Source of the DNA: a virus
IMG/VR virus record: IMGVR_UViG_3300034375_011428
Location: 1 to 39,306 of that record
Strand: one strand, 5' to 3'
DNA: 39,306 nucleotides
The position numbers and the translations under genes were made by a program. Of this stretch, positions 3,137 to 35,945 are shown piece after piece; position 1 is the first letter of the stretch, and each line of letters starts with the position of its first letter. The notes below the pieces were generated by a model. It ran no database searches and was not told the DNA's origin. It saw nothing but the letters and a program-made list of their open reading frames with translations.

Positions 3137-3140
3137 AGCA
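3124..3140 (+). terminator. Small stem-loop spanning the nuclease stop codon
   Basis: TGCTTC and GAAGCA form a perfect 6-bp stem around a CTTTT loop, covering the end of the nuclease gene. No run of T follows, so intrinsic termination is doubtful; it may be an RNA-stability or attenuating element before the next gene. Moderate structure only. Confidence 0.3.
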
Positions 3141-3142
3141 TA

Positions 3143-3156
3143 TACGTATAATTGTA
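3143..3156 (+). promoter_or_regulatory. TACGTATAATT element, possible second promoter class
   Basis: TACGTATAATTGTA lies 33 bases before the start at 3176. Near-identical copies lie before the genes at 19783 and 27733. It has no TTTG box 20 bases upstream, so it differs from the composite promoter described elsewhere in the window. Only three sites are seen, and function is inferred. Confidence 0.25.
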
Positions 3157-3175
3157 TATAATAAAAATTAAGATT

Positions 3176-3370: not shown

Positions 3371-3376
3371 AATTAC

Positions 3377-8916: not shown

Positions 8917-8952
8917 AAATTTCTTTATTATATTAAACAAAAACAATAACAT

Positions 8953-10530: not shown

Positions 10531-11356
10531 TTTTAGATTAGAAGTATTTAAAAAAGCTTCATTTTGTAGACATTTTGAAAATCAGGTTTACAAAGTAGCC
10601 CAAGATAAACATATTAAATTTCCTTTTTATCTGTCAGCAGGTCAAGAATTTATTCCTGCTACCCTTTATACTTTTTTAGAAAAAAAAGGAGTCGACACCA
10701 ATGTTTTTATTCAGCATAGAGGGCATTCTCATTATTTAAGTAAAGGAGCTGACCCTGTTCAACTAATTGATGAATTATTAGGTCGTAAAAGTGGTTGTGC
10801 TAATGGGATGGGGGGTTCAGCTTCAATCCATTCAATTGAAAAAGATATTTTTGGACATGACGGGTTAATGGGTAGTCAAGTACCTATTGCTGTAGGTCAC
10901 GCTTACCAAACTCGCAAACCTACTATTGTGGTAATGGGTGATGCTTCAGCTGAAGAAGATTATGTTTTAGGAGCATTAGGTTGGGCATCTACTAAAAAAT
11001 TACCTGTTTTGTTTGTTGTTGAAGATAATAATTTATCTATCTTAACTGAAAAAAGAGTAAGACGTAATTGGGAAATGGAAGATGTAGCTAAATCTTTTAA
11101 TATGGAAGCTTTTACAGTTGATGATAATCCTGTAATGTTAAGAAATGTTTTAGAAAATTGGGATTTTGAAAGTCCTATGTTAGTAAATGTCAATACTATT
11201 AGAAAATACTGGCACGCTGGAGCTGGAACTGATGGAGATTATTTTGACAGATATGAAGATGAAAAATCTATTTTAGGTACTGAAGCAGAACAAATTGATA
11301 TTGAAAATAAATCACTAGTAGAAAAGTTATGGCAACAACAGTTAGAGATACAATAA
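10523..11356 (+). CDS. Thiamine-diphosphate E1 alpha-like subunit
   Basis: A 277-residue protein of the pyruvate dehydrogenase/acetoin dehydrogenase E1 alpha type. It has QHRGHSHYLSKG, GMGGSASIHS, and the ThDP/Mg motif from G139-D-A to N169-N170. It is shorter than E1 alpha of 2-oxoacid complexes (about 320-370) and no E2 or E3 gene is nearby, so it is unlikely to feed a dehydrogenase complex. Paired with the beta subunit at 11329 it may decarboxylate pyruvate and pass the two-carbon unit to a keto sugar, as proposed for AviB1/AviB2 in avilamycin synthesis. It overlaps the beta gene by 28 bases. Confidence 0.85.
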   Translation: MSNFRLEVFKKASFCRHFENQVYKVAQDKHIKFPFYLSAGQEFIPATLYTFLEKKGVDTNVFIQHRGHSHYLSKGADPVQLIDELLGRKSGCANGMGGSASIHSIEKDIFGHDGLMGSQVPIAVGHAYQTRKPTIVVMGDASAEEDYVLGALGWASTKKLPVLFVVEDNNLSILTEKRVRRNWEMEDVAKSFNMEAFTVDDNPVMLRNVLENWDFESPMLVNVNTIRKYWHAGAGTDGDYFDRYEDEKSILGTEAEQIDIENKSLVEKLWQQQLEIQ

Positions 11357-12243
11357 AAGAAATTACACGAAAACATCTTACAGAAGATTTGGGCAAATGT
11401 TATGGTCAATGTCTTACAGCAGTAGGATGGGTAGGTGGAACTTTACCGGAAATGTATGAAGAAGATGGTATGGTTGAATTTTCAATGGCTGATGTTGCTG
11501 GGGGATCTATTGCTACTGGTATTGCTCTAGCTGGAGGTAGACCACTTTATGTAGTACGTTATCAAGGATTTCAATGGTATAATTTAGTATCAGTAGTTAA
11601 TTATGCTGCTAAATCTAAAGAAATTTGGGGTCGTCCTTGTCCTATTTTTGTTAGAAGTATTGCTATGGAAGGTGGAGTTGGTCCTGTAGCTGGTTCTTCA
11701 CACCATTCACTAGCTCAAAGAATGCCAGGTATTAAAGTATTAGCTCCTATGACTCCTGGTGAATACCAATTTGCTTATGATTCTTTTATGGCTGATGATG
11801 ATCCTTATTACATTTCAGAACATAGAAAATCTTATGACAATGATAAAGAATTACCTGATGTATTACATGATACCAAAGTAGATTTTACTTGGTTTCCAAT
11901 TTCTATTACTCGTTTAGAAATGGAAAAAGTAATGGAATTAGCAAACAAAGAAAATATTAAAATAAATATTTTCCACCAGTTATGGATTAAACCTTTTGAT
12001 GTACTTCCTGAGTGGACTGAGTCTCTTAAAAATTCTCGTTTTGGTGGTTTAGTTACTGATGATGATTATGTAGAAGGAGCCGCAAGTAGTATTGCTAATG
12101 AATTAAGTTTGGCTTCTAGAAAAAATGTATGGACATTAGGCCTAGAACCACGTACAGCAGGTTTTCACCCAACAGTAGATAATCTGCCCCCAAGTGCTGA
12201 AAAAATAGTTGAAAAATTAAAACAAATTAAATATGGGATTTAA
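11329..12243 (+). CDS. Thiamine-diphosphate E1 beta-like subunit (transketolase Pyr domain)
   Basis: A 304-residue E1 beta-type protein with the Pyr domain (GGSIATGIALAGGRPLYVVRYQGF), VGPVAGSSHHSLAQRMPGIKVLAPMTPGE, and a C-terminal transketolase domain. In ordinary E1 beta the Glu that activates the thiamine aminopyrimidine lies in a PLxE segment. Here a gap-free alignment by eye puts D55 (SMAD) at that position, an unusual change. It starts in an AAAGTTATG context inside the alpha gene. Together with alpha it should form a heterotetramer. The product is unknown; a two-carbon ligation to a sugar is favoured by the adjacent 3-dehydratase gene. Confidence 0.85.
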   Translation: MATTVRDTIKEITRKHLTEDLGKCYGQCLTAVGWVGGTLPEMYEEDGMVEFSMADVAGGSIATGIALAGGRPLYVVRYQGFQWYNLVSVVNYAAKSKEIWGRPCPIFVRSIAMEGGVGPVAGSSHHSLAQRMPGIKVLAPMTPGEYQFAYDSFMADDDPYYISEHRKSYDNDKELPDVLHDTKVDFTWFPISITRLEMEKVMELANKENIKINIFHQLWIKPFDVLPEWTESLKNSRFGGLVTDDDYVEGAASSIANELSLASRKNVWTLGLEPRTAGFHPTVDNLPPSAEKIVEKLKQIKYGI

Positions 12244-13396
12244 ATGGCCTCTTATTAATGACAATATTACCCAAGGTGATAGAGAAATCTTAGCTGATTT
12301 TTGTCTAAATGGTGAACGTTTCACAAATGGACCTAAAGTTAAAGAATTTGAAAAAATCTGGTCTGAATGGTTAGGTGTTAAACACTCTGTAATGGTTAAT
12401 TCTGGAGCATCTGGAAATTATATTTCAATTGCTATGGTAAAAGAATTAATGGGTGAGGGAGAAGTTATTGTACCCCCTATTGGTTGGGTTAGCGACATAT
12501 CTTCAGTTGCTCAATTAGGTATGACACCTGTATTTGTAGATGTTTCACTTGATGATTTTAATATTACAGCTGAAAATATTAAAAATGCTATTACTAAAGA
12601 TACTAAAGCAATTGTATTAGTTCATACACTTGGGTTCCCAGCAATTAATGATGAAATTATTCAAATTGCTAAGAATAATAATATTATGTTAATTGAAGAC
12701 TGTTGTGAGGCACATGGTGCTACTTATAATGGTAAGCGTGTAGGTTCATTCGGAGATATCTCATTGTTCTCATTTTATTTTGGGCACCACATTACTACCA
12801 TTGAGGGTGGAACTGTTTGTGTAAATGATGACAAGCTTTATGATTTAGCTAAACTATTCCGTTCACACGGAATGACTCGTGAAGCATCTCAGGAATTACA
12901 ACGTGATTATCAATTAATGCACCCTGACCTAAACCCATTGTTTACTTTCGCTGTAGCTGGGTTTAATATGCGTTCAACTGAATTAAACGCTGTACTTGGT
13001 ATTGAACAAATGAAGCGTTTAGACTACAATATAGAACGTAGACGTGAAAATCTTGACATTTGGTTAGATACTCTTGATAGTTCTAAGTTTATGACTTTCT
13101 TTAAAAGACAAGGAAATAGTAACTTTGCTTTACCTCTTATGATGCAAGGTGCTACTCGAGATAAATTGAAAGATGTTTGTGATATCTTAGAAGCTGAAGG
13201 TGTAGAATACCGTTTAGGTACAGCTGGCGGTGGTAGCCAAGCACGCCAACCTTATTTGAAAAAATTTCCTCATAGAATTAATGGTACTTTAGCTCAAGCA
13301 GACTATATTCACGATAATGCTTTGTATGTAGGTAACCATACCGATTTAACTGAGGAACAAATTGTTAATCTTTGTAAAAAATTAAATAATGTTTGA
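12233..13396 (+). CDS. ColD-like PLP/PMP sugar 3-dehydratase (DegT/AHBA family)
   Basis: A 387-residue DegT/DnrJ/EryC1-fold protein. D156 (IEDCCEAHGA) would bind the pyridine nitrogen. In the PLP-lysine motif the lysine is replaced by histidine (H185 in FYFGHHITTIEGG). This Lys-to-His change marks the 3-dehydratases: ColD, which deoxygenates C3 of GDP-4-keto-6-deoxymannose, and the CDP-sugar E1 enzymes. The cysteine set that binds the [2Fe-2S] cluster in E1 is absent, so it is ColD-like; length (ColD about 388) and histidine position (H188 in ColD) agree. Expected product: a 4-keto-3,6-dideoxy nucleotide sugar. The substrate could come from the gene at 15313. Confidence 0.82.
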   Translation: MGFKWPLINDNITQGDREILADFCLNGERFTNGPKVKEFEKIWSEWLGVKHSVMVNSGASGNYISIAMVKELMGEGEVIVPPIGWVSDISSVAQLGMTPVFVDVSLDDFNITAENIKNAITKDTKAIVLVHTLGFPAINDEIIQIAKNNNIMLIEDCCEAHGATYNGKRVGSFGDISLFSFYFGHHITTIEGGTVCVNDDKLYDLAKLFRSHGMTREASQELQRDYQLMHPDLNPLFTFAVAGFNMRSTELNAVLGIEQMKRLDYNIERRRENLDIWLDTLDSSKFMTFFKRQGNSNFALPLMMQGATRDKLKDVCDILEAEGVEYRLGTAGGGSQARQPYLKKFPHRINGTLAQADYIHDNALYVGNHTDLTEEQIVNLCKKLNNV

Positions 13397-14351
13397 TAAC
13401 CAAAAAGTTTTAGTAACTGGGGGGGCTGGAATGATCGGCCGTCAGTTAGTTGATTTGTTAGTAGAAAGAGGAGCTCAAGTAACAGTAGCTGATTTAAATC
13501 AACCCACAGATTTACCTGAAGGTGTTAATTTTGTCCAAGCAAACTTACTTTATTTTGATCAGTGTGAAAATATTTGCTCTGGAATGGATTATGTATTTAA
13601 TCTTGTAGGTATTAAATGTTCCCCTAAAGTAACTATGGAACAACCAGCTGATATTATGGGTCCTATGATGCAGTTTAATACTAACATGCTTGAAGCAGCT
13701 ATGAAAGCTAATGTAAAATGGTATTTGTATACTAGTACTGTTGGTGTTTATACTCCTGCTGAAGTGTTTTACGAAGATGATGTTTGGAAAGGATCTCCAT
13801 CACCTAATGATTGGTATGGTGGTTGGGCTAAACGTATGGGAGAATTGCAATGTGAAGCTTATGCTAAACAAAGAGGTGAAGGTATTTGTTCAATCGTAAG
13901 ACCAGCTAATGTGTATGGTCCTTATGATAACTTTGATTTAAAAAATGCTATGGTTGTTCCTTCACTTATCCGTAAAGCCCATGAAAATGAAATTTTAGAT
14001 GTGTGGGGTGATGGTTCTCCAATTCGTGATTTTATTCATGCTAAAGATGTTGCTCGTGGTATGATTTTTGCTGTTGAAAATAAAATCACTGAACCATTGA
14101 ATTTAGGTTCGGGTACTGGAGTAACTATTAAAGAGTTAGCTGAAACTGTAGCTAATTACTTTGATAAATCTATTCAATGGTCACCCGAAAAACCATCAGG
14201 TGATGCTCGTAGAATTTTTAGTATGGAACGAGCTAATTCATATGGTTTCTATCCTGAGGTTTCTATTAAAGAAGGCGTGGAGAGCACAATTGAGTGGTTT
14301 ATATTGAACCAAGATAAAATTGAGAAAAAATTTAATGCATTAAATAAATAA
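13389..14351 (+). CDS. Extended SDR, GDP-fucose-synthase-like
   Basis: A 320-residue extended short-chain dehydrogenase. The NAD(P) loop is TGGAGMIG (residues 10-17), YTSTVGVY holds the catalytic-type serine/threonine near 116, and WGDGSPIRDFIHAKDVARG and NLGSGTGVTIKELAE are typical of fucose-synthase/epimerase relatives. The tyrosine/lysine pair is Y143-x4-K148 instead of YxxxK, an oddity shared in kind with the next gene. The likely role is reduction and/or epimerisation of the 4-keto sugar. The start overlaps the dehydratase gene by 8 bases. Confidence 0.8.
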   Translation: MFDNQKVLVTGGAGMIGRQLVDLLVERGAQVTVADLNQPTDLPEGVNFVQANLLYFDQCENICSGMDYVFNLVGIKCSPKVTMEQPADIMGPMMQFNTNMLEAAMKANVKWYLYTSTVGVYTPAEVFYEDDVWKGSPSPNDWYGGWAKRMGELQCEAYAKQRGEGICSIVRPANVYGPYDNFDLKNAMVVPSLIRKAHENEILDVWGDGSPIRDFIHAKDVARGMIFAVENKITEPLNLGSGTGVTIKELAETVANYFDKSIQWSPEKPSGDARRIFSMERANSYGFYPEVSIKEGVESTIEWFILNQDKIEKKFNALNK

Positions 14352-14353
14352 TT

Positions 14354-15313
14354 ATGGGTTTTTATAAAGGAAAAAATGTTTTAGTAACTGGGGCAGCCGG
14401 AATTACAGGTCATGCTGCTGTTAAAAGATTATTAGCTGAAGGAGCTAATGTTAGAGCAACTGTATATCAAAATAGAGGTCTTGATATTGAAGATCATCCA
14501 AATCTAGAAGTAGTCCAATGTGACTTAATGAAGCACGAAGATTGTATGCGTGTTCTAGAAGGTATGGATGTTTGTTTCAATTTTGTGGCGTTTATTAGAG
14601 GTGCTAAAGGTCAAACTGAATATAGTAATGCTCTTGATTTAGTACGAAATAATTTGTTTACTTCAATTAATATGATTGATGCAGCTGTTCGTAGTAAATT
14701 AGATAGATTTGGTTTTGTTGGTAGTTCAACTATGTATCCTGATGTATCTCATGCTGTAAATGAAGATGAAGCATTTGATTCAAATCCTCATAAATTGTAT
14801 AGAGGTGTGGGTTGGATGAAACGTTACGTAGAAAAAGTAATTGAATACTACCAAGATATTTCAGAAACTAAGTTTGGTATGGTTCGCACAACTGCGATTT
14901 ATGGTCCTCATGATGCTTTTAATGAAAATGGGCATGCTATTCCCCAATTGATTATGAAAGCAGATAGTGGAATGAATCCATTTGAAGTTTGGGGTGATGG
15001 TTCTCAAATGCGTGATTTTATTTATGTAGATGATGTTGTTGATGCTGTAATGACAGTTGTTGAAAAAGCACCTACAGGACGTCCTTATAATGCTGCTACA
15101 GGTAAAGGTACTACAGTAACTGAATTGGTAGAAACTATTACGGACATTTATGGTTACGAACCTGAATTCAATTATGATGTTACTAAACCTACTATGATTC
15201 CTATTCGTTTGGTTGATGTATCAAGAATTAAGGATGAATTAGGTTGGGAAGCAAAACACGACCTTAAAACAGGACTAGAAAAAACTATTGAGTGGTATAA
15301 AAATAACAAATAA
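14354..15313 (+). CDS. Extended SDR, paralog of the preceding gene
   Basis: A 319-residue extended SDR with TGAAGITGH (residues 12-20), FVGSSTMYP, WGDGSQMRDFIYVDDVVDA and AATGKGTTVTELVE. Layout and motifs parallel the upstream gene, so the two are probably an old tandem duplication. The active-site region reads YRGVGWMKR, with lysine 156 seven residues after Y149, so the usual YxxxK is missing here as well. Two reductases after a 3-dehydratase and a ThDP enzyme could set different stereocentres, or one could work on the branched ketone. The stop shares a base with the next ATG. Confidence 0.8.
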   Translation: MGFYKGKNVLVTGAAGITGHAAVKRLLAEGANVRATVYQNRGLDIEDHPNLEVVQCDLMKHEDCMRVLEGMDVCFNFVAFIRGAKGQTEYSNALDLVRNNLFTSINMIDAAVRSKLDRFGFVGSSTMYPDVSHAVNEDEAFDSNPHKLYRGVGWMKRYVEKVIEYYQDISETKFGMVRTTAIYGPHDAFNENGHAIPQLIMKADSGMNPFEVWGDGSQMRDFIYVDDVVDAVMTVVEKAPTGRPYNAATGKGTTVTELVETITDIYGYEPEFNYDVTKPTMIPIRLVDVSRIKDELGWEAKHDLKTGLEKTIEWYKNNK

Positions 15314-16323
15314 TGGTTAATGCTTTCATTACAGGTATAACAGGAATGGTCGGCTCACATTTGACCGACTTCCTGTTAGAAAATACAGATTGGAAAATTT
15401 ACGGACTTGCTCGTTGGAATGATTCATTAGAGAATATTGAGCATTTAGCAGAAGAAATTAATAAAAAAGAACGTATTGAAATTATTTATGGTGATTTAAA
15501 TGATTTAGCATCTCTTATTACAGCTGTAGATAAAGCAAAACCCGATTATGTGTTTCATTTAGCTGCTCAATCATACCCACAAACTAGTTTTGATGCGCCT
15601 ATAGAAACGTTACAAACTAATATATTGGGCACTGCGAATTTATTAGAGGCAATGCGTAAAAGCGTTTATAATCGCTCTATAATTCACGTATGTGCCTCAA
15701 GTGAAGTATTTGGTCGAGTACCTAGAACTAAACTTCCTATTAACGAGGAATGTTCATTCCATCCAGCTTCACCTTATGCTATATCTAAAGTTGGAACTGA
15801 TTTAATAGGTCGTTATTATGCTGAAGCATATGGAATGACTATTATGACTACTAGAATGTTTACCCATACTGGTCCTAGACGTGGAGATGTATTTTCAGAA
15901 TCAACATTTGCTAAACAAATTGCTATGATTGAAGCTGGTTTACAAGAACCTAAAATTTATGTAGGCAATTTGGAATCACTTAGAACATATGCTGATGTTA
16001 GAGATGCTGTAAAAGCATATTATATGTTAGTTACTAAAAACCCAATTAGAGGGGAATATTATAATATTGGTGGTGATTATACTTGTACTATTAAAGAAAT
16101 GTTAAATTATCTTATTAGTCAATCCACAGTAAAAAATATTGAAATTGTAACAGATCCAGATCGTTTACGTCCTATAGATGCTGATTTACAAATCCCAGAT
16201 ACTACAAAATTCCAATCTCATACTGGTTGGGAACCTGAATATACTTTCGAACAGACTATGGATGATTTGTTAAATTATTGGAGAGATAAAGTAAAATCCG
16301 GAAGGAAATTTTTAAGACGATGA
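15313..16323 (+). CDS. GDP-mannose 4,6-dehydratase-like SDR
   Basis: A 336-residue extended SDR. It has TGITGMVGSHL at the N terminus, GDLNDLASL, HLAAQSYPQTSF, S130-E131 in CASSEVFG, the canonical Y155-x3-K159 (SPYAISK), and MFTHTGPRRGDVFSESTFAKQ. The SE pair and the THTGPRRG region match GDP-mannose 4,6-dehydratases more than dTDP-glucose 4,6-dehydratases. Expected reaction: GDP-mannose to GDP-4-keto-6-deoxymannose, the known substrate of ColD. It overlaps the kinase gene after it by 4 bases. Confidence 0.82.
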   Translation: MVNAFITGITGMVGSHLTDFLLENTDWKIYGLARWNDSLENIEHLAEEINKKERIEIIYGDLNDLASLITAVDKAKPDYVFHLAAQSYPQTSFDAPIETLQTNILGTANLLEAMRKSVYNRSIIHVCASSEVFGRVPRTKLPINEECSFHPASPYAISKVGTDLIGRYYAEAYGMTIMTTRMFTHTGPRRGDVFSESTFAKQIAMIEAGLQEPKIYVGNLESLRTYADVRDAVKAYYMLVTKNPIRGEYYNIGGDYTCTIKEMLNYLISQSTVKNIEIVTDPDRLRPIDADLQIPDTTKFQSHTGWEPEYTFEQTMDDLLNYWRDKVKSGRKFLRR

Positions 16324-17051
16324 GAATATTAGTTATAGGAGATAGTTGTACTGACGTTTTTAGATATGGTAAGGTAACTCGAATTGCCCCTGAAGCCCCA
16401 GTCCCTATTATTGTACCTGAACGTGAAACCGAAAACCCCGGAATGGCGGGTAATGTAGTAGCTAATCTAAAAGCATTAGGTGCTGAGGTAGAATTTATTA
16501 CTAATAAAACTAAAATTCGTAAAGTAAGATACGTTTGTTCTAAGTATAATCATTTACTTTTAAGAGTAGATGAAAATGATAGGTGTGAACGATTTGATAT
16601 TGTACCTTTCAAAACCAAAGAATTTGATGCCGTTATTATTTCAGATTACTGTAAAGGGTTTTTAGAAGAAGAAGATATTCAAATGATATCTAGAAGTTTT
16701 GAATGTCCCGTATTCTTAGATACTAAAAAAATATTAGGTGAGTGGGCTTTGTCTATTGATTTTATTAAAATTAATTTTCACGAATACGAACGTAATAAAG
16801 AAGTTCTAGCAAATAATTCTTATTTAAATAATAAAACTATTGTAACTAGGGGTAAATACGGCTGTGATTATCAAGGTAAAAATTACCCTACAATAGACGT
16901 TCCTGTGAAAGATGTCTCAGGAGCAGGTGATACATTTCTTTCAGGTTTAGTAGTAGAATATGCTCGTTCTAAAGATATAGATAAAGCAATTAAATTTGCT
17001 CAAGATTGCACAACTATAGTAATTCAAAAATCAGGAGTATCAACTGTTTAA
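16320..17051 (+). CDS. HldE/RfaE N-domain-like PfkB carbohydrate kinase
   Basis: A 243-residue PfkB kinase resembling D-glycero-beta-D-manno-heptose-7-phosphate kinase. It has ILVIGDSCTDVFRYGKVTRIAPEAPVPI at the N terminus, GMAGNVVANLKALGA, RVDENDR, AVIISDYCKGFL, and the catalytic DVSGAGDTFLSG motif. It is about 70-80 residues shorter than HldE kinase domains, the loss lying in the lid and middle region, and has no cytidylyltransferase domain. No heptose isomerase (GmhA) is in the window. It probably phosphorylates a sugar phosphate using the host pathway or genes outside the window. Confidence 0.8.
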   Translation: MRILVIGDSCTDVFRYGKVTRIAPEAPVPIIVPERETENPGMAGNVVANLKALGAEVEFITNKTKIRKVRYVCSKYNHLLLRVDENDRCERFDIVPFKTKEFDAVIISDYCKGFLEEEDIQMISRSFECPVFLDTKKILGEWALSIDFIKINFHEYERNKEVLANNSYLNNKTIVTRGKYGCDYQGKNYPTIDVPVKDVSGAGDTFLSGLVVEYARSKDIDKAIKFAQDCTTIVIQKSGVSTV

Positions 17052-17054
17052 GTT

Positions 17055-17951
17055 ATGGAAATATTTGAATTTGAAAATAAATCATACCTGATTAGTTTTC
17101 TTTTGCTTACAAGAAAAAATCCTGAAGGTATTAAAAAAGTAATTAATAATTTTACTTCACTTTCAGATAAACAATTAGATAATTTTGAATTAATAATTAA
17201 GATTGATTATGATGATGAAGAATCAATAAATTTAATAAAAGAATTTTCTAATCAAAATACTAACCTTAAGTTTCTTGTTAGTTCTAGATTAAAAGGGTAT
17301 CCTAGTATGAATGAGTTTTCTAGAGATATTGCTTATTTAGCTAGGGGTAAATACCTAATGCATATTAGTGATGATACTGAAATGGTTACTCCTAATTGGA
17401 ATAGAATTTTAGAAAATGAACTTAAAGAAACTAGATTTTATGCTTGTAACTTTAATTTTGTTAGTTCTAAAGGAGAATCAGTAAATATTAAAGATGCAGA
17501 AGAACCTAAATGGGCTGAGGATAGAACTTTTTTAGGGAAAGTAGGAGTAAATTTTCATGATTTTATTTACATAGCATACCCTAAAAAAATTATGGAATTG
17601 TGGGGATTTGTTGCTCCACATGCTTTAGTAGATAATTTTATAGGAGATATTGGTAAAAGAGTTAGTTTCCACCCTTGGAACACCCCAGTTTATGAATTTA
17701 TTGATAGTATTGAAATAAACCATTATGGGGGATTCCCTGAAGATTCAGAATCATTTCATACTAGTGAACTATCAGAAAAAGTTCACAATACTTATCGTTC
17801 TTATATAAATGATGCTTTATTCTTTGATTGTGCTAATAAAGTAAAAGAATACATTGAATGGGAAAAATGGCATAAACAACACAAACTAAACATTGTTAAT
17901 GATTTTAGAAATAGTGGATTAAGTGTAAAAGATTATTTTGATTTGAAATAA
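17055..17951 (+). CDS. GT2-like glycosyltransferase
   Basis: A 298-residue GT-A-type protein. It opens with SYLISFLLLTRKNPEGIKKVI and has the acidic pair D106-D107 in HISDDTEMVTPNW, equivalent to the DxD region. It is a probable paralog of the gene at 1483. The C-terminal 130 residues, with HPWNTPVYEFIDSIEINHYGGFPEDSESFH, form an extra domain likely to choose the acceptor. The start lies in an AAGTTATG context, 3 bases after the kinase stop. Specific sugar unknown. Confidence 0.7.
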   Translation: MEIFEFENKSYLISFLLLTRKNPEGIKKVINNFTSLSDKQLDNFELIIKIDYDDEESINLIKEFSNQNTNLKFLVSSRLKGYPSMNEFSRDIAYLARGKYLMHISDDTEMVTPNWNRILENELKETRFYACNFNFVSSKGESVNIKDAEEPKWAEDRTFLGKVGVNFHDFIYIAYPKKIMELWGFVAPHALVDNFIGDIGKRVSFHPWNTPVYEFIDSIEINHYGGFPEDSESFHTSELSEKVHNTYRSYINDALFFDCANKVKEYIEWEKWHKQHKLNIVNDFRNSGLSVKDYFDLK

Positions 17952-18799
17952 TGAAAACAGCAGCTATATTATACAGCCGTAATGATGGTTACAAAGAAGA
18001 CGAAAGATCAGCTATTTGTATTAATTCAATGGTTGAAACCTTTGATGAACTTTGGTATATTGATTGGAATTCACCTGAAGATAAAGGTTCATTGTTGTGG
18101 CAAATTGAAGATAAGTTAGTTAAAAAAGGAAAAATTAAACATATTATTATTCCTCCCTCAATTGCTTCTCAATTAACTCCACCAGATGCTAGTGTTGTAA
18201 ACGGGCTAATCCCACCTAATTTAGTATTTAGAAGAACTGATGCTGATTGGATTGTAAATACTACTATAGATATTATTGCTCCTAAAAGAGAATTATTTAA
18301 TAATTTCCTCAAAACAGCTAACCCAAATACATTTTATACTTTATCAAGAAGGGACATTGAATACCAAGATGTAATTGATTACGGAATAGACAAATGGCAA
18401 GAATATAGAGATATTTTAGATAAAACTACCCAAGAAAGACGATTGCCAGCAATGGTAACTCCAAATGATAAGTATAGCTTAATTAATTGTTGTGGAGATT
18501 TTCAATTAGCATCTCGTAATGTTTGGAATACTATTAAAGGGTATGAAGAAGAAATGTATTATGCTTGCTTCCCAGATACTAATATTCAAAAGAAAGCAGT
18601 ATTAAATGGGTTTGGTTTAGAAGCAATTTATGATGTTCCTTTATACCATATGTCTCATACGGGAATGGGTAATGATGGTTCGTCTCCTTCAAAACAAAAA
18701 TACAATGACCCTTGGAAATGGGTAGAATATTTCCAAACCTCAAAAAATACAGAAGATTGGGGTTTAAATGGAGTAGAGATAGAATACGAAACTATCTAA
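17951..18799 (+). CDS. Probable GT-A-fold glycosyltransferase-like protein
   Basis: A 282-residue protein. It begins with AAILYSRNDGYKEDERSAICINSMVETFDELWYIDWNS, which looks like the first half of a GT-A fold. VFRRTDADWIVNTTIDIIAP carries a D-x-D-like acidic cluster, and DFQLASRNVWNTIKGYEEEMYYACFPDTNIQKKA resembles the acceptor-side region seen in GT2-like proteins. The classification is by pattern only. It is the last gene of the glycan island and its stop is followed by a 34-base gap. Confidence 0.6.
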   Translation: MKTAAILYSRNDGYKEDERSAICINSMVETFDELWYIDWNSPEDKGSLLWQIEDKLVKKGKIKHIIIPPSIASQLTPPDASVVNGLIPPNLVFRRTDADWIVNTTIDIIAPKRELFNNFLKTANPNTFYTLSRRDIEYQDVIDYGIDKWQEYRDILDKTTQERRLPAMVTPNDKYSLINCCGDFQLASRNVWNTIKGYEEEMYYACFPDTNIQKKAVLNGFGLEAIYDVPLYHMSHTGMGNDGSSPSKQKYNDPWKWVEYFQTSKNTEDWGLNGVEIEYETI

Positions 18800-21199: not shown

Positions 21200-21772
21200 A
21201 TGAAACTTTATAGATACGATTCAAAATCACTTCAATTTAAAAAATTCCCAATTTCAACTCAAGCACTTAAAGCTTTGTTTACAGCAATTTTAATTTTCAT
21301 GTTTTTGGGGATGAGTACAACTGAAGTAAAAACCGAATATGTTACTAATACTGAAGATATTTTATTAGTAAGATCCAATCGAGAATTTTCAGAAGAAAAA
21401 TTAGTTAATTTACTTAAAGAACTTAATTTACCTTACCCCCATATTACTTTAGCTCAGGCCAAATTAGAATCAGGAGAATTTAGTTCTCGTATTTTTAAGG
21501 AAAATCATAACTTATTTGGTATGAAAGAAGCTAAAGTTAGAGTTAATTTAGCTCAAGGTACTCAATATGGGCATGCTTATTATAATAGTTGGGAAGAAAG
21601 TGTTTTAGATTATGCTTTTTGGTATTCTAGCTATGCTCGTAAATGTAAAACAGAAAATGAACTTTTTCAATTGTTAGACCAGCAATATGCTGAAGCTGAT
21701 CAATATGTATCATCATTGAAACATATCATATCAGATCAACAATTAAAAGAAAAGTTTAATGGCAAAAATTAA
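21200..21772 (+). CDS. Membrane-anchored GH73-like glucosaminidase (lysin)
   Basis: A 190-residue protein. One hydrophobic segment at about residues 22-39 follows a basic N terminus, which fits a signal-anchor or uncleaved signal sequence. The catalytic part has the GH73/FlgJ-Bax signature: LAQAKLESGEFSSRIF with E90 as the probable acid, ENHNLFGMKE, YNSWEESVLDYAFWYS and YVSSLKHII. It should cleave peptidoglycan N-acetylglucosaminyl bonds and is the best lysis candidate in the window. No holin is obvious next to it, so signal-anchor export is one possibility. Confidence 0.82.
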   Translation: MKLYRYDSKSLQFKKFPISTQALKALFTAILIFMFLGMSTTEVKTEYVTNTEDILLVRSNREFSEEKLVNLLKELNLPYPHITLAQAKLESGEFSSRIFKENHNLFGMKEAKVRVNLAQGTQYGHAYYNSWEESVLDYAFWYSSYARKCKTENELFQLLDQQYAEADQYVSSLKHIISDQQLKEKFNGKN

Positions 21773-27948: not shown

Positions 27949-28078
27949 ATTTCATTTTGACGAAGAGGAAGACCCAATGCCCTACCAGCCTAAGAAAAAC
28001 CCTGGGAAAAAAGATATGTGGGCTCAGAATCCAAGAAAGAAAACTAAAATTAAAAAGTTCAAATATAAAAACCTATGA
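27941..28078 (+). CDS. Small basic hypothetical protein, 45 residues
   Basis: ATG at 27941 inside the preceding gene; stop overlaps the next ATG. The acidic start (HFDEEEDPMPYQPKK) is followed by a very basic end (PRKKTKIKKFKYKNL). A charge-segregated peptide of this kind may bind nucleic acid or a partner. Tight coupling on both sides supports that it is real. Confidence 0.6.
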   Translation: MAKFHFDEEEDPMPYQPKKNPGKKDMWAQNPRKKTKIKKFKYKNL

Positions 28079-29190
28079 AACGAAGGCTAATATTTTCAAT
28101 TAGTACGTCATTTTATAAACGAGATAATTGGGTAGAACACGTCTATGAGTCTCTAAAAGCGCAGACCTATCCTTGGTGGGAATGGGTGGTGACCGATGAT
28201 TTTTCAGAGGAAAATAGCGCGGAAGAAAAACTTCTCGCTATCGCTAAAGAAGACGCTCGCGTTAGGTATTATAAACAATCAAGAAAAAAAGAGCTCTTCT
28301 ACAACCCACAATATAGTTGTACAGGTGATATTGTAATGCAATTGGATTGTGATGATTATATTTATCCTAGTTTGTTGGAACAATATAATAAGTACTTTAG
28401 TGAGGATCCTGAATTGATGGGGATTACTTGTGGGTTTATGGCTCGTAAGAATTTGGATAAGGAATTTGTTCACACCTCAGGTTCTTATATTTTAAAAGAC
28501 AGATGCAATATAAATTGGGCTCAAATGGGAAGAGCTTGGAGAAATATTATTCCTCATTTTGATTTTAATGGAGATTTAGAGTATTACCAAAATGATACTA
28601 ATATGTGGCGTCAAGTTGAAGCAAGAGGTAAGGTTTTGTTTTTACCTCGTGAATTGTACGTATACAATTATCAAGATGATTATAACTCTATCTCTAAAAT
28701 AAAATATTCGTGGGAAAACAACCAAAGATTAGAGAAAGAGAGAATCTTTATGGAAAATCGTTTTCCTATGTTGGAAGAAGGAGAATTTTGTACTTTTGAT
28801 TTGAAATATTTATCTATTGACAACCTTACGTGGGCTTTTTACACTTGTGAGTTTAATACTAAAACCACCCCACAAAATGTATGCTTTATTAAAGCGGGTA
28901 TAAGACCATACGAGAAACAGTTACTGAATGAGCTGTTTTACGATCATAACATTAGTTACGACATTAATAAACGCGAAAAATACGATGAAATCGTGGTGTA
29001 TTTGGACGAAAGAACGTTAGAATATCTGGAGACGAATTTTGGGGAGATTAGAGAAAAGCATAGTGGTACTCCTTTTAAATTTGCTATAGATTACACTACA
29101 ACTACTATTGATCACGAACGTTTAGAACTATTTAATCGATGGAGTTTTTGGCAAAGTGGCCATCTATATTACGGACATTTGCTTTGGTGA
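28075..29190 (+). CDS. GT2-family glycosyltransferase beside tail-fibre genes
   Basis: A 371-residue GT2 enzyme with FSISTSFYKRDNWVEHVYESLKAQTYPWWEWVVTDDFSEE at the N terminus and the D91-C-D93-D94 site in MQLDCDDYIYPSL. A second domain of about 150 residues (MLEEGEFCTFDLKYLSIDNLTWAFYTCEF...) ends the protein and could bind an acceptor. It is far from the glycan island and next to the LamG proteins, so it may glycosylate a tail component. The first 200 bases use more C/G-ending codons than neighbours. Confidence 0.8.
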   Translation: MKRRLIFSISTSFYKRDNWVEHVYESLKAQTYPWWEWVVTDDFSEENSAEEKLLAIAKEDARVRYYKQSRKKELFYNPQYSCTGDIVMQLDCDDYIYPSLLEQYNKYFSEDPELMGITCGFMARKNLDKEFVHTSGSYILKDRCNINWAQMGRAWRNIIPHFDFNGDLEYYQNDTNMWRQVEARGKVLFLPRELYVYNYQDDYNSISKIKYSWENNQRLEKERIFMENRFPMLEEGEFCTFDLKYLSIDNLTWAFYTCEFNTKTTPQNVCFIKAGIRPYEKQLLNELFYDHNISYDINKREKYDEIVVYLDERTLEYLETNFGEIREKHSGTPFKFAIDYTTTTIDHERLELFNRWSFWQSGHLYYGHLLW

Positions 29191-29206
29191 TATTTATAAC
29201 CAAAAA

Positions 29207-29500
29207 ATGTCATACGAAAATAGAAAGTACGTAATTTTTAATGTATCTGAGTTAGGAAGTATTAATTTCGATGAGGTTATGGAAACCTCTGCTGATACTG
29301 TTAGATTATCTTTAGATGGGACTCAAACGTTTGTTAAGTTCAATTATTCGGCTTATACTGATGAATCTGGTTCATTAGTAGAGAATATTCCGGCTTCGGT
29401 TGATGCTTTAACTACTAAGTCACAATTGTATTCTCACAGTGAAATTTTAACACTTTTATCAGGAGCTGATTGGACTGATCCGAACCCTACAGAAATGTAA
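29207..29500 (+). CDS. Small probable virion-associated protein
   Basis: The frame is open from 29156, but ATG at 29207 in an A-rich context is the likelier start, giving 97 residues (MSYENRKYVIFNVSELGSINFDEVMETSADTVRLSLDGTQTFVKF). This short beta-rich protein lies between a transferase and the LamG genes, and its stop is six bases before the next start. By position it may be a tail-fibre accessory or chaperone; no family is recognised. Confidence 0.6.
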   Translation: MSYENRKYVIFNVSELGSINFDEVMETSADTVRLSLDGTQTFVKFNYSAYTDESGSLVENIPASVDALTTKSQLYSHSEILTLLSGADWTDPNPTEM

Positions 29501-29506
29501 TTTGTT

Positions 29507-31111
29507 ATGGGTAGATTATTTGGATTTGAAACGGGAAACAAACTTCCTCATAGGAGAAGACAAAAAGGTAAAGTAGCTACTACAGTTGCTGTTAATGCTG
29601 CTGCCTCCTCATCAGATCTTCGAAATGCACCTAATTATACTGACCAGTATTTAATTGTTCATGAAAGTGAGACAATGTTTGGTCAAAGTGCTGCTACTGC
29701 TACGCCTGTATTTTGGACTTGTGACATAAATGATGAAGATTTATTAAATTTAATTAATAGATTACCTAGTTCCCCTGATAATTTTACAGATGTTAATGTT
29801 GCTAAAGCATGGGCTTTAGATAATGATTTTATGATCATTACCAGTAATAAGAGTTTTAATACAGTTGGAGGTGATTTAGTATTATATTTTGACGTTTCTA
29901 GTGTTGACTGTTGGCCCGGGAGCGGGAATAAATTATATGATTTAAGTGGTAATGGTAATTATGCTACATTATATAATTCTACATTAATTGAAAAAGGGTA
30001 TATTGAATGGAATGGAACTAATGAATATGCTCAAATTTCATTTGATTCAAGTATGGCAGCTTGGAATACTGCACAAACTGTTTGTATGTGGTTAAACCAC
30101 AGTTATACCTCTGGAAGACGTAATCCTTGGGATCAAGCTTATGGGGGGTATGGTACTTGGACACATGAACAAGGGGAAAGTATATCTCATTACTATGGTG
30201 ATGCAGGTAGGAATGCTTCACCTTATGTAGGTAGAGGTTCAGGAGCACCTGGAAGAAATCAATGGAATTTTGTGGTTACTACTAGAAGTACTACTCAAAG
30301 TAAATGGTATGTAAATGGTACTAATACAGACACTTATAACCATAGTTATGGTACTTTAACAACCGATACAAACGTTGTTAGATTAGCTAGAGGGTATGCT
30401 GGTTATTGGCAAGGTAGAATGGGAAGCGTGATGGCCTATAGTAAGGTACTAACTCAAGCTGAAATTTTACAAAACTATTACTTAGCTAATATTGTAACTG
30501 ATAATTTACAATTACATTATGATTTTGGTCATTTTGCCTGTTATGATGGAGAGAGTTCTACAATTTATAATTTAGCTGTTCCTGCATCAACGGGAGCAAC
30601 AATTGTAAATACTGGAAATGATATTACATATAGTAAAGCTGGGTATATAGAATGGGCTGGTAATAATGCTGCTTATGTAGATATTCCTGATACAGGACAA
30701 ATGGGTAATTTTAGTTTATCTGCTTGGGTTTATAATAAATCTGGAGGTGATGGTAGACATTCTTTATTGAGAAATTTTTGGGAAATTGTAGGTACTAGTT
30801 TACAATTTTGGTCCTATGATTTTGCTAATGATTATTGGAGAAGCACAGCCTCAAATATAGTTCCTTATGATACTTGGACTCATATTACTACTACTTGGGA
30901 TGGTTCAGTAGTTAGACACTATGCTAATGGAGGATTAGTATGGGTAGATAGTAATGTTTCAAGTGGTACTTCTGAAAACCTATATTGGATGGGTGGCTAC
31001 GGAGGTAGAAAATTTAAAGGTAAAGTAGCTGTATTATCAGTTTATCAAGATACTTTAACTGGTGAGGAAGTGTTCCAAAACTATAATGCTTATCAAGATA
31101 GATTTAAATAA
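29507..31111 (+). CDS. Tandem LamG-domain protein, probable tail fibre/adhesin 1
   Basis: A 534-residue protein. The N-terminal 120 residues form a cap related in order to the caps of the next two genes. Two LamG/concanavalin-like lectin domains follow, at about 125-325 and 335-530. Each opens with a KLYDLSGNGN or TIYNLA-type strand and contains AWVY/CMWL, W-F/T-VVTT and YVNG/ANG strands; each closes with the EILQNY / EVFQNY helix. LamG domains bind glycans or protein surface ligands, fitting receptor binding. It shares its stop base with the next ATG. Confidence 0.8.
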   Translation: MGRLFGFETGNKLPHRRRQKGKVATTVAVNAAASSSDLRNAPNYTDQYLIVHESETMFGQSAATATPVFWTCDINDEDLLNLINRLPSSPDNFTDVNVAKAWALDNDFMIITSNKSFNTVGGDLVLYFDVSSVDCWPGSGNKLYDLSGNGNYATLYNSTLIEKGYIEWNGTNEYAQISFDSSMAAWNTAQTVCMWLNHSYTSGRRNPWDQAYGGYGTWTHEQGESISHYYGDAGRNASPYVGRGSGAPGRNQWNFVVTTRSTTQSKWYVNGTNTDTYNHSYGTLTTDTNVVRLARGYAGYWQGRMGSVMAYSKVLTQAEILQNYYLANIVTDNLQLHYDFGHFACYDGESSTIYNLAVPASTGATIVNTGNDITYSKAGYIEWAGNNAAYVDIPDTGQMGNFSLSAWVYNKSGGDGRHSLLRNFWEIVGTSLQFWSYDFANDYWRSTASNIVPYDTWTHITTTWDGSVVRHYANGGLVWVDSNVSSGTSENLYWMGGYGGRKFKGKVAVLSVYQDTLTGEEVFQNYNAYQDRFK

Positions 31112-33189
31112 TGGCAAATGTACTAAAATATAAAACTTCACAACCAACTAAACGAGGATTACGTAAAGGTAATGTTGTTTTGGGTACTGGTGATGAAAAT
31201 TATGGTCCCTCATCAACTACTGGTTATTATAGTGGTGTTGATGTGCCTGAGGATGGGTTTGTTGTTTATACTTTAGGTTTAAATAATAATCCTAAGGTAT
31301 TTGTTGCTCAAACTGAAGATGATTTACCTGCTATTGCTAGAACATTAGGGGGTGGTGTATTAACTGTGTTAGAATCTAAAAACTATTTACAAACTTTAGC
31401 TAATACTTGGGTTTTAGATAGCTTACCAAAAAACAAATTGACTGATGGTTTAAGACTAAACTTAGATGCTAGAGTTGAATCTAGTTTTTTAGATAACCAA
31501 CCTACAATTAATTTAGCTGGTAATCCGGATTTTAGTAACGGCACTACCGGCTGGAATGCAAACCAAAATGTAACACTAAGTGTTGAGACTATTAACGGTA
31601 CTAGGTTTCTAAAAGCAAAATCAAACCAAACTATCAGTACTCCGGGATTCAAATCGAGTAATATAACAGTAAGTGGTAATACAACCTATACCCTCACCAT
31701 AAGAGCTTATAAAAACGACTCACGGAGTATCTTCTTATATGCAACAGGTAACGGGACTGGAGGTTCAGATATAGTATGGTCAAACGCATCGTATAACGGA
31801 CCTAATCCAATTACTACGGAATTAACAACAATCTCGAGAACTTTTACAACACCATCAGATATGACCTATCTACAGATAGGAGCTTTATGGTCCGGTCCAT
31901 TAACAACCTCAGAGGTATACGTAGAGTATATGCAGCTTGAAGAGAAATCAACAGCTACTCCTTTTATTAGTGGTTCCCGTTCTCAAAATACTACTTGGTA
32001 TGATTTGAGTGGATATGGAAATAATTTTACCTCTATGAACAATATGACTTTTACAAGTCATTCATTTGATTTTAATGGAGTTGATTCAGGGGTACAAAAT
32101 AATATCTCTAGTTATAATCCGGATAGTGCTGATAGTGTGTTAGAATGTTTATTTAAACCTATGGATTTATCCGGGGAACAAGCTATATTTTCAGATAATT
32201 ATGGTCCTGAATTTGGATTTTGGATTCATACTAATGGTAAACTAAGAGCCATAGCCTATGCCTCAGTATATGCTGATTTAGAAATAGGAAAATGGTATCA
32301 TGCAATTATGAATATTGATCCTGGTGCTACTAAAAGTTCATCCGATCAAACTTATGTACAACTCTATTTAAATGGGGAGTATATTGGTCAAAGTAATGCT
32401 AATACGGGTAATGGTATGAATGACCAACCATTTACCTTAGGATATGATTATAGAAGTGGTTCCCCTACTCGGTATTTTTCTGGCAGTATTGCTGCTGCTT
32501 CAGTGTATTATGGTCAATTTACCCAAGAAGAAGTATCTCAAAACTACTATGGTGGTCCAATCGTTACAGATGGTTTAACATTTGCTGCGGATGCTGGTAA
32601 TTTAGTCTCGTATGAAAGTGGTTCAACTACTGCTTATTCAATGACGGGTTCATATAGTACTTCTTTAGTAAATGGGGTTGGATATAGTAACAATAATGGG
32701 GGTGCTTGGATATTTGATGGGGTAAATGATTATATTAATGTTTCTGCCTTTAATGTTTCTTACTTAACAATAGATACTTGGGTATATAGAACCTCTACTA
32801 CAACTCATCAGGGTATAAGTAGAAAACAAAATGAATGGGCTCTTAGCCAATATAATGGGACCCTTCAAATAGCAATAGGCCCTGCTTGGTATTTTTTAAA
32901 TACAGGATATACAATTCCATTAAACACTTGGACACATATTACCTATACCTACAGTGGTACAAACCAAATAGGATCACAAATAGTTTATATTAACGGGGAA
33001 GAAATTTTTAGTGCCACAGATGGGTTCGGACCTATATCTGCTGGGGGTAGTACTTATCGTATTGGATATGATGATAATGGTTGGTTTTGGGGAGGAAAAA
33101 TAGCTAATCAAAAAATATATAACAGAGCTCTTAGCAATGCTGAGGTTCTTCAAAACTACAACGCACAAAAAGCAAGATTCGGTTTATAA
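31111..33189 (+). CDS. LamG tail fibre/adhesin 2, with carbohydrate-binding-like module
   Basis: A 692-residue protein: cap domain (MANVLKYKTSQPTKRGLRKG... to residue 130), a CBM4/9-like jelly-roll at about 133-288 (NPDFSNGTTGWNANQ... then YLQIGALWSG and VYVEYMQLEEKSTATPF), then LamG domains at about 300-485 and 490-690. The jelly-roll is richer in C/G-ending codons than flanking modules, suggesting domain exchange. The protein ends EVLQNYNAQKARFGL, identical in DNA to the end of the next gene over 32 bases. Expected role: host surface recognition. Confidence 0.82.
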   Translation: MANVLKYKTSQPTKRGLRKGNVVLGTGDENYGPSSTTGYYSGVDVPEDGFVVYTLGLNNNPKVFVAQTEDDLPAIARTLGGGVLTVLESKNYLQTLANTWVLDSLPKNKLTDGLRLNLDARVESSFLDNQPTINLAGNPDFSNGTTGWNANQNVTLSVETINGTRFLKAKSNQTISTPGFKSSNITVSGNTTYTLTIRAYKNDSRSIFLYATGNGTGGSDIVWSNASYNGPNPITTELTTISRTFTTPSDMTYLQIGALWSGPLTTSEVYVEYMQLEEKSTATPFISGSRSQNTTWYDLSGYGNNFTSMNNMTFTSHSFDFNGVDSGVQNNISSYNPDSADSVLECLFKPMDLSGEQAIFSDNYGPEFGFWIHTNGKLRAIAYASVYADLEIGKWYHAIMNIDPGATKSSSDQTYVQLYLNGEYIGQSNANTGNGMNDQPFTLGYDYRSGSPTRYFSGSIAAASVYYGQFTQEEVSQNYYGGPIVTDGLTFAADAGNLVSYESGSTTAYSMTGSYSTSLVNGVGYSNNNGGAWIFDGVNDYINVSAFNVSYLTIDTWVYRTSTTTHQGISRKQNEWALSQYNGTLQIAIGPAWYFLNTGYTIPLNTWTHITYTYSGTNQIGSQIVYINGEEIFSATDGFGPISAGGSTYRIGYDDNGWFWGGKIANQKIYNRALSNAEVLQNYNAQKARFGL
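33151..33182 (+). repeat. 32-bp perfect direct repeat at fibre gene end, copy 1
   Basis: Identical to 35907-35938. Both encode QNYNAQKARFG using AAC-TAC-AAC codons, while the homologous end of the first LamG gene uses AAC-TAT-AAT. It is a natural site for recombination between the two fibre genes. Confidence 0.85.
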
Positions 33190-35945
33190 TGGCAAACGTA
33201 ATTAGATATAAAAGAGATCAACCTACTAAACGTGGTTTAAAGAAAGGTAATACTGTAGTTGGTATTGGAGATGAAAACTATGGACCTACTTCAACTACAG
33301 GGTATGTTGCTGGTATTGTTCCTCCTGATGGTGGGTATACTGTTTATACTTTGAGTGGTAACAATGATCCTGCCATTTATGTTGCTAATAATGATAATGA
33401 TCTAATTGCAATTGCTAGAACATTAGGAGGAGGTAATTTAACTGCTTTAGAATCAAAAAACTATTTAAGAAGAAAATTTAATACTTGGGTTTTAGATAGT
33501 ATCCCTAATAATTTTATAACAGATGGTTTAATAGTAAATTTAGATGCAGGAAATGAATCTAGTTTTATAGATAATCAACCTACAACTAATTATGTTCCTG
33601 GGACTTTTCCTTATGCTTATTATGCTTATGTTTATTTTAATGGAGGAGTAGAAGTAGTCAATGAAAGAAATCAATTTATTACAGCCCAAAGGTATACTAT
33701 TACTAATACTGTAAATACTGCTAGAGCAGCAATATTTCCAACCGGGCTTACTACTGGAGTAGCTTATACGTTTTCTTTTAAATGGAAGTATAATGGGACT
33801 ACAACAACTTCTCCATCAATCGAAGTTTCTGCATACAAAGGAAACCCTGAAGGAGGAAGTAATAATAATAGCTTTACCTCCCAAACAGCAGACACAGTTA
33901 ATATAGGGCAAGGATGGTACCTAACAACCTACACGTTTGTATTTTCATCTAATCCAACAGGAGCCTGTATGCTTACTTTTGGCATAGGTACAGGTAGTAA
34001 TACAGGATATTTAAATGAAACTTTTGATGTTTATGAAGCCCAATTTGAGATAAGTGATTCTGGAACACCTTTTGCGGATGGTACAAGAGAACAAAACCCA
34101 ATTTGGAAAAATATAAGTGGTAGGAAAAAACCATTAAATGAGTTAAGAGTATTAGGAGCACACCATTCAGGATATCAGTACCCACCATTTTATAATTACT
34201 TTCGTGTTAATTGTAATATGACTAATGAACCCGTTGTTAATGATTTGCCTAATAACTGGCCTGCATCTCAAGTAGCTGAAGAGTTTGATCTAGTAATAGT
34301 TGATGAGTATGTTTGGGCAATGGGGGGTAGTGTTATTGACTGGATGAAAGAATGTGTTGATTTAGGTGTTAGCTGTATTGGGGTTGGGAATGATCAAAGA
34401 ACTGGGACATTTGTTGCTAGTTATAACACATCTACAAGACAATCTCATGATGTAAGAATAGATTCTAAATCCCCATTTGGATTGCAAGGTAGAATATTTA
34501 CTTACGGTAGTGGGGATGTATATGGTGGTATTACAGCATTACAAAATGGTGCTATACCTGTTTATTACAGAGATGATGTTGATAGAATAATGGGTTATGT
34601 TTATGAAAATAATGAAACTGGAGCAGCATTTTGGTTTGATCAAGAAGGATTACAAAGTACAAGCACTGAATTATTTGAAGCAGGATTAGACTATATAACT
34701 CGAAATATAGGTAATAGAGGATTTTTATATAATAGTCCTACTTATAATTCAAATGGATGGTTTGATTTTGATGGGGTGGATGATTTTATTGAGTTAAAAA
34801 ACCTCCCAACATTTGATATGTACTGTTTTGAGGTTGTATTTAGACCTCATAAAACTATTTCCCCTAATACAGGTCCTGCTAGTAGTGATTATTCTTTGGT
34901 AGGATTTGGTAGAGATATAGGTAATAATAATGGAGTAAACTTGTATGAGTGGACCAGTGGTATGACTAATGAAACTGTTACTTTTTGGAGTCATGATGGT
35001 TTTGCTACTGGGATTACTGATACTGTTGATACTAATTGGCATCATATGTTTTTTAACTGGAATGGAACTACATATGATATTTGGTTAGACGGAGAACAAA
35101 AATCTACTATTCAACGAAGTACAGGACATGCTAAATTACAAACCAATGTTTCTGCTATTAGTCCTGGGAAAAATATAGGATATAATTACTACCATTCAGG
35201 TTCTATAGCTAAAATTAGAGCTTATGATAGAGCATTGTTAGATAGTGAAATTTCTCAAAATTATTATGGAGGCCCAATTGTTACAGATGGTTTAACATTT
35301 GCTACTGATGCTGGTAATTTAGTATCTTATGAGAATGGTTCAACGACTGTTTATTCACTAACAGGTTCTGATAGTGGAACTTTAATAAATGGGGCTAGTT
35401 TTAATTCAAGTAATGGTGGAGTATTCACATTTGATGGGGCTAATGAATATATTAGTATACCTGCTGCTTCAGCATTAGGAACTAGTCAAATTACAGTAGC
35501 AGCATGGGTTTATCCTACACAAGATGCTACTACTGGTGGTAGAACTAGGGGAGCTGTATTTGGGGGGCCAGGAGCTTTGTATTTAGGTTTATGGCCTAAT
35601 GGTAGTGCAGGTTCTTCAGCTATTCACACAGCAGTTCAAACAACATCAGGAAGACCTTCAACTCAAACAGGAACTATTTACACAAATCAATGGTCTTATT
35701 TATTAGCTACTTATGATGGAGCTAATTTTAAAACATATTTGAATGGTGAATATGTTACTCAAACTTCTCAAACTGGGACCATATCAGCAGGATCAACTTA
35801 TTATATAGGAACTTATAGTGCACTTACAGATGGTAATCATAACTTCCCGGGAAAAATAGCTTGTGCTACCATTTATAATAGATCTCTTAGTGAAGATGAG
35901 ATTCTCCAAAACTACAACGCACAAAAAGCAAGATTCGGAAAATAA
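33189..35945 (+). CDS. LamG tail fibre/adhesin 3, with inserted alpha/beta domain
   Basis: A 918-residue protein: cap (1-133) highly similar to that of gene 31111, a jelly-roll module (about 135-300, ending FDVYEAQFEISDSGTPFADGT), an inserted alpha/beta domain (about 310-505), and LamG domains at about 515-690 and 695-918. The inserted part has LNELRVLGAHHSGY, EEFDLVIVDEYVWAMGGSVIDWMKE, CIGVGNDQRTG and GAAFWFDQEG, a Rossmann or flavodoxin-like order that recalls ThuA/glutaminase-like folds. It splits the WKNISG / FLYNSPTYNS linker that is continuous in the relatives. Likely a receptor-binding or surface-modifying protein. Confidence 0.8.
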   Translation: MANVIRYKRDQPTKRGLKKGNTVVGIGDENYGPTSTTGYVAGIVPPDGGYTVYTLSGNNDPAIYVANNDNDLIAIARTLGGGNLTALESKNYLRRKFNTWVLDSIPNNFITDGLIVNLDAGNESSFIDNQPTTNYVPGTFPYAYYAYVYFNGGVEVVNERNQFITAQRYTITNTVNTARAAIFPTGLTTGVAYTFSFKWKYNGTTTTSPSIEVSAYKGNPEGGSNNNSFTSQTADTVNIGQGWYLTTYTFVFSSNPTGACMLTFGIGTGSNTGYLNETFDVYEAQFEISDSGTPFADGTREQNPIWKNISGRKKPLNELRVLGAHHSGYQYPPFYNYFRVNCNMTNEPVVNDLPNNWPASQVAEEFDLVIVDEYVWAMGGSVIDWMKECVDLGVSCIGVGNDQRTGTFVASYNTSTRQSHDVRIDSKSPFGLQGRIFTYGSGDVYGGITALQNGAIPVYYRDDVDRIMGYVYENNETGAAFWFDQEGLQSTSTELFEAGLDYITRNIGNRGFLYNSPTYNSNGWFDFDGVDDFIELKNLPTFDMYCFEVVFRPHKTISPNTGPASSDYSLVGFGRDIGNNNGVNLYEWTSGMTNETVTFWSHDGFATGITDTVDTNWHHMFFNWNGTTYDIWLDGEQKSTIQRSTGHAKLQTNVSAISPGKNIGYNYYHSGSIAKIRAYDRALLDSEISQNYYGGPIVTDGLTFATDAGNLVSYENGSTTVYSLTGSDSGTLINGASFNSSNGGVFTFDGANEYISIPAASALGTSQITVAAWVYPTQDATTGGRTRGAVFGGPGALYLGLWPNGSAGSSAIHTAVQTTSGRPSTQTGTIYTNQWSYLLATYDGANFKTYLNGEYVTQTSQTGTISAGSTYYIGTYSALTDGNHNFPGKIACATIYNRSLSEDEILQNYNAQKARFGK
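35907..35938 (+). repeat. 32-bp perfect direct repeat at fibre gene end, copy 2
   Basis: Same 32 bases as 33151-33182, in the same frame and at the same distance from the stop. The block upstream (ending CTCTTAG... and encoding LS..E.LQNY) is similar but not identical, so only the last 32 bases are fully homogenised. Confidence 0.85.

Follow-up and report, generated by a model that had tools for sequence, protein, structure and literature searches.

Three consecutive genes in the window (the whole stretch of viral DNA analysed here, 39,306 nt) encode LamG fibre proteins. They begin at 29507, 31111 and 33189, and the last of them carries a segment that splits a linker left unbroken in its sister, which raises the question of what this segment is and what it might do in a fibre. 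The open reading frame concerned matches Laminin_G_3 (PF13385) at 103.6 bits, against a cut-off of 27.6. Its parts, with the sister gene for comparison, are as follows.

33189–35945 (+): 918-aa LamG fibre protein with the insert (Laminin_G_3, E 1.4e-29)
33189–33503 (+): N-terminal region common to the sister fibre (43% identical to the sister across aa 1–311; 35–42% to the L007 fibres over about aa 1–130), probably the virion-attachment part
33513–33563 (+): first LamG strand (TDGLIVNLDAGNESSF), from the sequence and LamG repeat comparison
33573–34088 (+): CBM_4_9-like module nested in LamG, 67–71% identical to L002/L003; the sister's equivalent matches PF02018 with E 1.2e-10
34122–34706 (+): inserted domain, aa 312–506, delimited by alignment and with a predicted GATase1/ThuA-like fold
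34302–34316 (+): D-x-Y-x-W motif, aa 372–376, from the alignment; strand E61–65 of the model
34386–34403 (+): GND-x-x-T motif, aa 400–405, with no Cys, from the alignment and model
34446–34448 (+): invariant His, aa 420, from the alignment
34638–34649 (+): D-Q-E-G motif, aa 484–487, at the end of the last strand, from the alignment and model
34707–35267 (+): rest of LamG domain 1, from a profile match and comparison with near relatives
35280–35942 (+): LamG domain 2, Laminin_G_3 match at aa 749–905
31111–33189 (+): sister fibre without the insert, from sequence comparison and a profile match

The initial annotation had placed a break at about residues 310–505 and noted that the sister lacks it; both points hold, the boundaries being off by at most two residues. 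The insert comprises 195 residues and interrupts the first LamG domain precisely at its DLSG|GN loop. At this point the sister reads GSRSQNTTWYDLSG-YGNNFTSMNNMTFTSHSFDFNG without interruption, whereas the 918-aa protein reads GTREQNPIWKNISG-[195 aa]-IGNRGFLYNSPTYNSNGWFDFDG, with ISG before the insert and IGNRG after it. The corresponding W-x-DLSG-GN-x-G motif is continuous in the sister and in some 25 further LamG domains found in related phages. In the near relatives L002 and L003, LamG follows the CBM-like stretch directly, without the insert. Insert and flanks are alike in GC or base composition and in codon usage, and the junctions bear no direct repeat of more than 7 bases; there is thus no sign of recent acquisition. 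CBM_4_9-like stretches are also nested within LamG domains in the sister gene and in L002/L003, which means that the jelly-roll holds two nested domains, the insert being the second. That the insertion in the LamG loop is real and not a chance feature is confirmed by five independent proteins that bear this domain, 15 columns of the alignment being invariant. What is observed directly is the insertion, the existence of the protein family and the absence of the domain from near relatives.

Finding those proteins required a search by pattern. The insert has no usable sequence match in Pfam, NCBIfam, PHROGs, PDB sequences or 50,697 phage records, the PF00117 and PF06283 profiles gave it no match above the cut-off, and single-protein scans of viral contigs with either the insert or the sister as query found no relatives. 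A hand-made DNA pattern, D-x-Y-x-W-(23 residues)-GND, run on IMG/VR, yielded two relatives, and wider pattern and profile scans brought the total to five: four on viral contigs and one in a Candidatus Uhrbacteria MAG. The viral copies are 41% (L020, 119.8-kb contig), 37% (L040, 244 kb), 35% (L041, 63.9 kb) and 23% (L025, 158 kb) identical to the window copy, and the bacterial one (L029) is 24% identical; the L020 identity spans the whole domain. At E ≤ 10, Pfam returned no match for the window domain, L029 or L025, and for L020 only PF17132 at 0.077. Further pattern matches (L017–L019, L021, L022, L028 and L030–L036) were rejected as unrelated proteins, and a tblastn match in Synechococcus phage S-PM2 (residues 410–917) was an over-extended LamG alignment instead of an insert homologue. 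Searching 380 and 395 genomes from two phyla by profile gave only weak false matches (an RNase J-like and an amylase-like protein). The domain is a family unnamed in Pfam, NCBIfam and PHROGs, a new family with a known fold.

Aligned with its five relatives, the window copy belongs to a set whose invariant columns include D60, D65, Y67, G86, G93-N94-D95, T98, H113, D156, D177 and G180 (domain numbering). W69 is kept in five of the six members and replaced by F in the other, and the distance from this W (or F) to GND is 23 residues in every member. Two stretches quoted early on as marks of the segment, FDLVIVDEYVWAMGG (aa 366–380) and CIGVGNDQ (aa 397–404), are both present.

Structure prediction gives the domain a class-I GATase-like (GATase1/ThuA-like) fold with good support. 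AlphaFold2 models were built from the six-sequence family alignment for the window domain (pTM 0.70, mean pLDDT 64.8, with residues 96–140 of low confidence) and for the L020 domain (pTM 0.78, pLDDT 76.9); two alignments of insert plus LamG (A6 and A7) were left out of the modelling because LamG or CBM rows fell on the insert. The stronger evidence for the fold comes from L020. With Foldseek, its model gave 53 matches at E ≤ 1e-3, and the 50 listed are all class-I GATase-like by title; the best among those listed is 2a9v (4.2e-7), with the ThuA-like 4pxy at 2.6e-6 and also GH42, IFT52 and PuuD. VIA placed TrpG (1i7q) at Z 11.3 and 4pxy at Z 11.2 (179–180 aligned, 3.6 Å), followed by the GH42 middle domain (Z 11.2), Agd3 6nwz (Z 10.9) and the ThuA-like 1t0b (Z 10.1), Z scores of 10–11 being insufficient to single out one family within the superfamily. 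The matches are about 200 columns long. Support from the model of the window domain itself is weaker: Foldseek ranks GMP synthase subunit A first (2a9v, E 4.2e-4), mixed with partial receiver-domain matches, VIA returned 4pxy at Z 7.8, and NDST1 was matched by both programs. The predicted structure is an alpha/beta sandwich in the order b1-aA-b2-b3-aB-b4, with a beta hairpin region and a C-terminal helix, a topology that implies that the N and C termini of the domain lie close together. Neither model is a beta-helix or a LamG sandwich; the fold search bears out the ThuA/glutaminase-like half of the fold first suggested for the segment (L020 model, E 4.2e-7 and Z up to 11.3), and the flavodoxin-like half becomes very improbable, with no receiver among the listed matches of that model. 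Foldseek also found A0A5C1K4Z4 (E 4.5e-6) and A0A6J5R861 (2e-3) in BFVD. Small alignments of ThuA, GATase and DUF4350 proteins, the ThuA set containing mis-framed rows, gave no match to the family by profile–profile comparison, but those of ThuA and GATase did not match each other either, so that this comparison carries no weight.

In class-I GATases, the nucleophile Cys comes after the strand that follows helix B, and His-Pro-Glu closes the last strand. Among the six aligned members there is no conserved cysteine column, and GND replaces the GxCxGxQ elbow. His-Pro-Glu is likewise absent from the end of the last strand in the family alignment, where DQ-x-G or DEEG stands instead; the Glu of DQEG is variable, being A or T in two members. 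Going by strand order, D-x-Y-x-W would occupy the strand end at which GATases carry the oxyanion Gly-Gly, GND-x-x-T would come after the strand leading into the nucleophile elbow, and D-Q-E-G would take the place of His-Pro-Glu. At the level of sequence, then, the Cys-His-Glu triad is missing, with the signature D-x-Y-x-W, GND-x-x-T, H and D-x-x-G in its place, and the insert domain is not an amidotransferase. With no conserved cysteine and the triad motifs replaced, the proposal in the initial annotation of an enzymatic domain finds no support in the sequence analysis. D-x-Y-x-W and other signature residues are conserved at strand ends, and this polar and aromatic signature points to a ligand site. 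An SGNH hydrolase, which GND might suggest, was rejected: the spacing of the blocks is wrong for that family (GxxND, not GxND), and there is no recognisable GDS block.

The closest parallel in function-bearing terms is a module of Agd3 from Aspergillus fumigatus (6nwz), which shares with the insert a triad-less GATase1/ThuA-like alpha/beta/alpha fold, as predicted here, conserved Asp and aromatic residues, and a place in a polysaccharide-handling protein. Residues 141–364 of Agd3 are closest to the GATase1-like 3RHT and the ThuA-like 4JQS and have no Cys-His-Glu triad; the module binds a GalNAc/GalN-rich polymer, has conserved exposed aromatics at the C-terminal sheet edge, and is weakened in binding by each of the cleft mutations D242A, W292A and W344A (PMC7229062). 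Against the L020 model, 6nwz aligns over 175 residues at 3.9 Å, in a range (147–770) that lies partly outside the module. Unlike the insert, the Agd3 module is fused to a deacetylase and is fungal rather than part of a phage fibre, and the two have no established common sequence signature. A similar N-terminal domain without catalytic function is present in NDST1 (PMC10864358). The ThuA-like BACUNI_01602 (4pxy/4jqs; PF06283) has the same predicted fold, but the insert does not match PF06283 and has other residues at its strand ends. The class-I GATases TrpG and GMP synthase subunit A (PF00117) likewise share the predicted fold and the order of strands and helices, whereas the insert lacks their Cys nucleophile, HPE, Gly-Gly oxyanion motif and a PF00117 match. 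The middle (trimerisation) domain of GH42 beta-galactosidases (5xb7, 5e9a) has the same fold and is an accessory part of a carbohydrate-active protein, although it is attached to a TIM barrel and not set within LamG. Dimethylformamidase combines a pentraxin-fold and a ThuA-like domain in one protein, as the window protein would, but its domains are consecutive rather than nested in a jelly-roll and it is an iron enzyme, with a 2-Tyr-1-carboxylate iron centre as its active site (PMC7686228).

The setting of the domain recurs among its relatives. In L020, L040 and L041 it stands behind the first LamG strand (TDGLxxxYPFDGTLNK), with a strand and a CBM-like stretch after it; in the window copy the CBM-like stretch comes first and the domain sits at the DLSG-GN loop. 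We read both placements as the same break, between the first LamG strand and the rest of the jelly-roll, as far as the sequences allow. By eye, the L025 domain precedes an apparent F5/8C-type domain, and the L029 domain lies within a repeat-rich surface-type protein with VGIGTTTPAYKLDVNG repeats. Four viral members belong to fibre-type proteins in which the neighbouring parts are CBM- or LamG-like; a tail-type protein carries the fifth. The only member off viral contigs, L029 (7095–7742, −), is encoded in a long, repeat-rich surface-type protein of the Candidatus Uhrbacteria MAG, which may be a prophage product or a cell adhesin. Presence and absence between near relatives would fit a shuffled specificity module.

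We propose that the insert is a mobile module by which a receptor-binding fibre recognises glycans, a reading to which we give a probability of roughly 0.55. An intact GATase1/ThuA-like domain, set into the first LamG jelly-roll at its DLSG-GN loop, would have lost the amidotransferase triad and would serve glycan recognition. The D-x-Y-x-W, GND-x-x-T, His and DQ-x-G residues may line a single cleft at the C-terminal sheet edge, which would bind a host surface polysaccharide jointly with the adjoining CBM-like and LamG domains and so change host specificity. This is the most economical reading because the fibre is already composed of CBM-like and LamG parts. Against it, the invariant D, N, D, H and D make a more polar set than a CBM cleft typically has, one that might serve catalysis or bind metal, and among the aromatics only Tyr is invariant, Trp being kept in five of six sequences. 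Of the two effects first envisaged for the domain, a change of specificity, through glycan binding, is the better supported; modification of surface glycans is possible only.

The main alternative, which we consider unlikely, is an enzyme built on the ThuA/GATase-like fold, in which an Asp/Asn/His/Asp site, possibly with metal, would replace the Cys triad and serve to trim host glycans or remove their modifications as the phage adsorbs. The residues D, Y, N, D, T, H, D and D are invariant despite identities of 23–41% to the window copy, several of them lie at C-terminal strand ends, the active-site location of this fold, and dimethylformamidase offers a jelly-roll plus ThuA-like protein with a non-Cys active site (PMC7686228). 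The domain nevertheless matches no enzyme family model, the Glu of DQEG is unconserved, and the fold is often accessory in carbohydrate enzymes (the GH42 middle domain, Agd3, NDST1). A bolder form of this idea, an undescribed family of fibre-borne enzymes whose D-x-Y-x-W/GND-x-x-T/H/D-x-x-G site hydrolyses or de-modifies host surface glycans and that spread among phage fibres through one LamG loop, is a shade less probable again.

Two further readings would make the insert a passive part or a sensor. As a non-binding structural or oligomerisation element it would lengthen or stiffen the fibre, as the GH42 middle domain or the IFT52 N-terminal domain might suggest, and both are among the closest folds; eight invariant polar and aromatic residues over such divergence would be unexpected of a pure spacer, however, and near relatives lack the domain, so that we think this improbable. 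A flavodoxin/CheY-like receiver or nucleotide-binding sensing domain is suggested by the window model alone, with CheY-like receivers at Z 7.6–7.8, and by the resemblance of FDLVIVDEYVW to a receiver Asp strand. The listed matches of the better, L020 model instead span the domain from end to end and are GATase1-like with no receiver among them, aligned receivers cover only about 110–125 residues, and strand 1 has no visible receiver acid pair. A sensing domain is very improbable. The glycan-recognition module is our preferred reading.

Upstream of the fibre genes, the window also holds an endolysin-like protein (21200–21772; PHROG 21890, E 3.5e-11) and, directly before the fibre cassette, a glycosyltransferase family 2 gene (28075–29190) with a 44% identical relative upstream of the L004 LamG genes. 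A 114-aa protein without a family match (29156–29500), relatives of which adjoin LamG fibre genes in L002, L003, L004 and L007 (34–51% identity), may be a factor in fibre assembly. At 2189–18799 lies a series of sugar genes, in which a PD-(D/E)XK nuclease (2189) comes ahead of glycosyltransferases (3377, 4807 and a GT10-type at 7574), an E1-type dehydrogenase (10523), an aminotransferase (12233), epimerases (13389, 14354 and 15313) and a PfkB-type kinase (16320); synthesis or modification of a glycan by the phage is a possibility.

We found no earlier description, in the open-access literature, of such a domain nested in the LamG loop of a fibre. With it, the known components of phage receptor-binding proteins gain a domain family unnamed in Pfam, NCBIfam and PHROGs, and its short motifs can be used to spot the domain in unannotated fibres. 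The DLSG-GN loop of LamG is a recurrent landing site for what may be specificity modules. If the domain binds polysaccharide, it would extend the Agd3-type, GATase1-like carbohydrate-binding module from fungi to phages.
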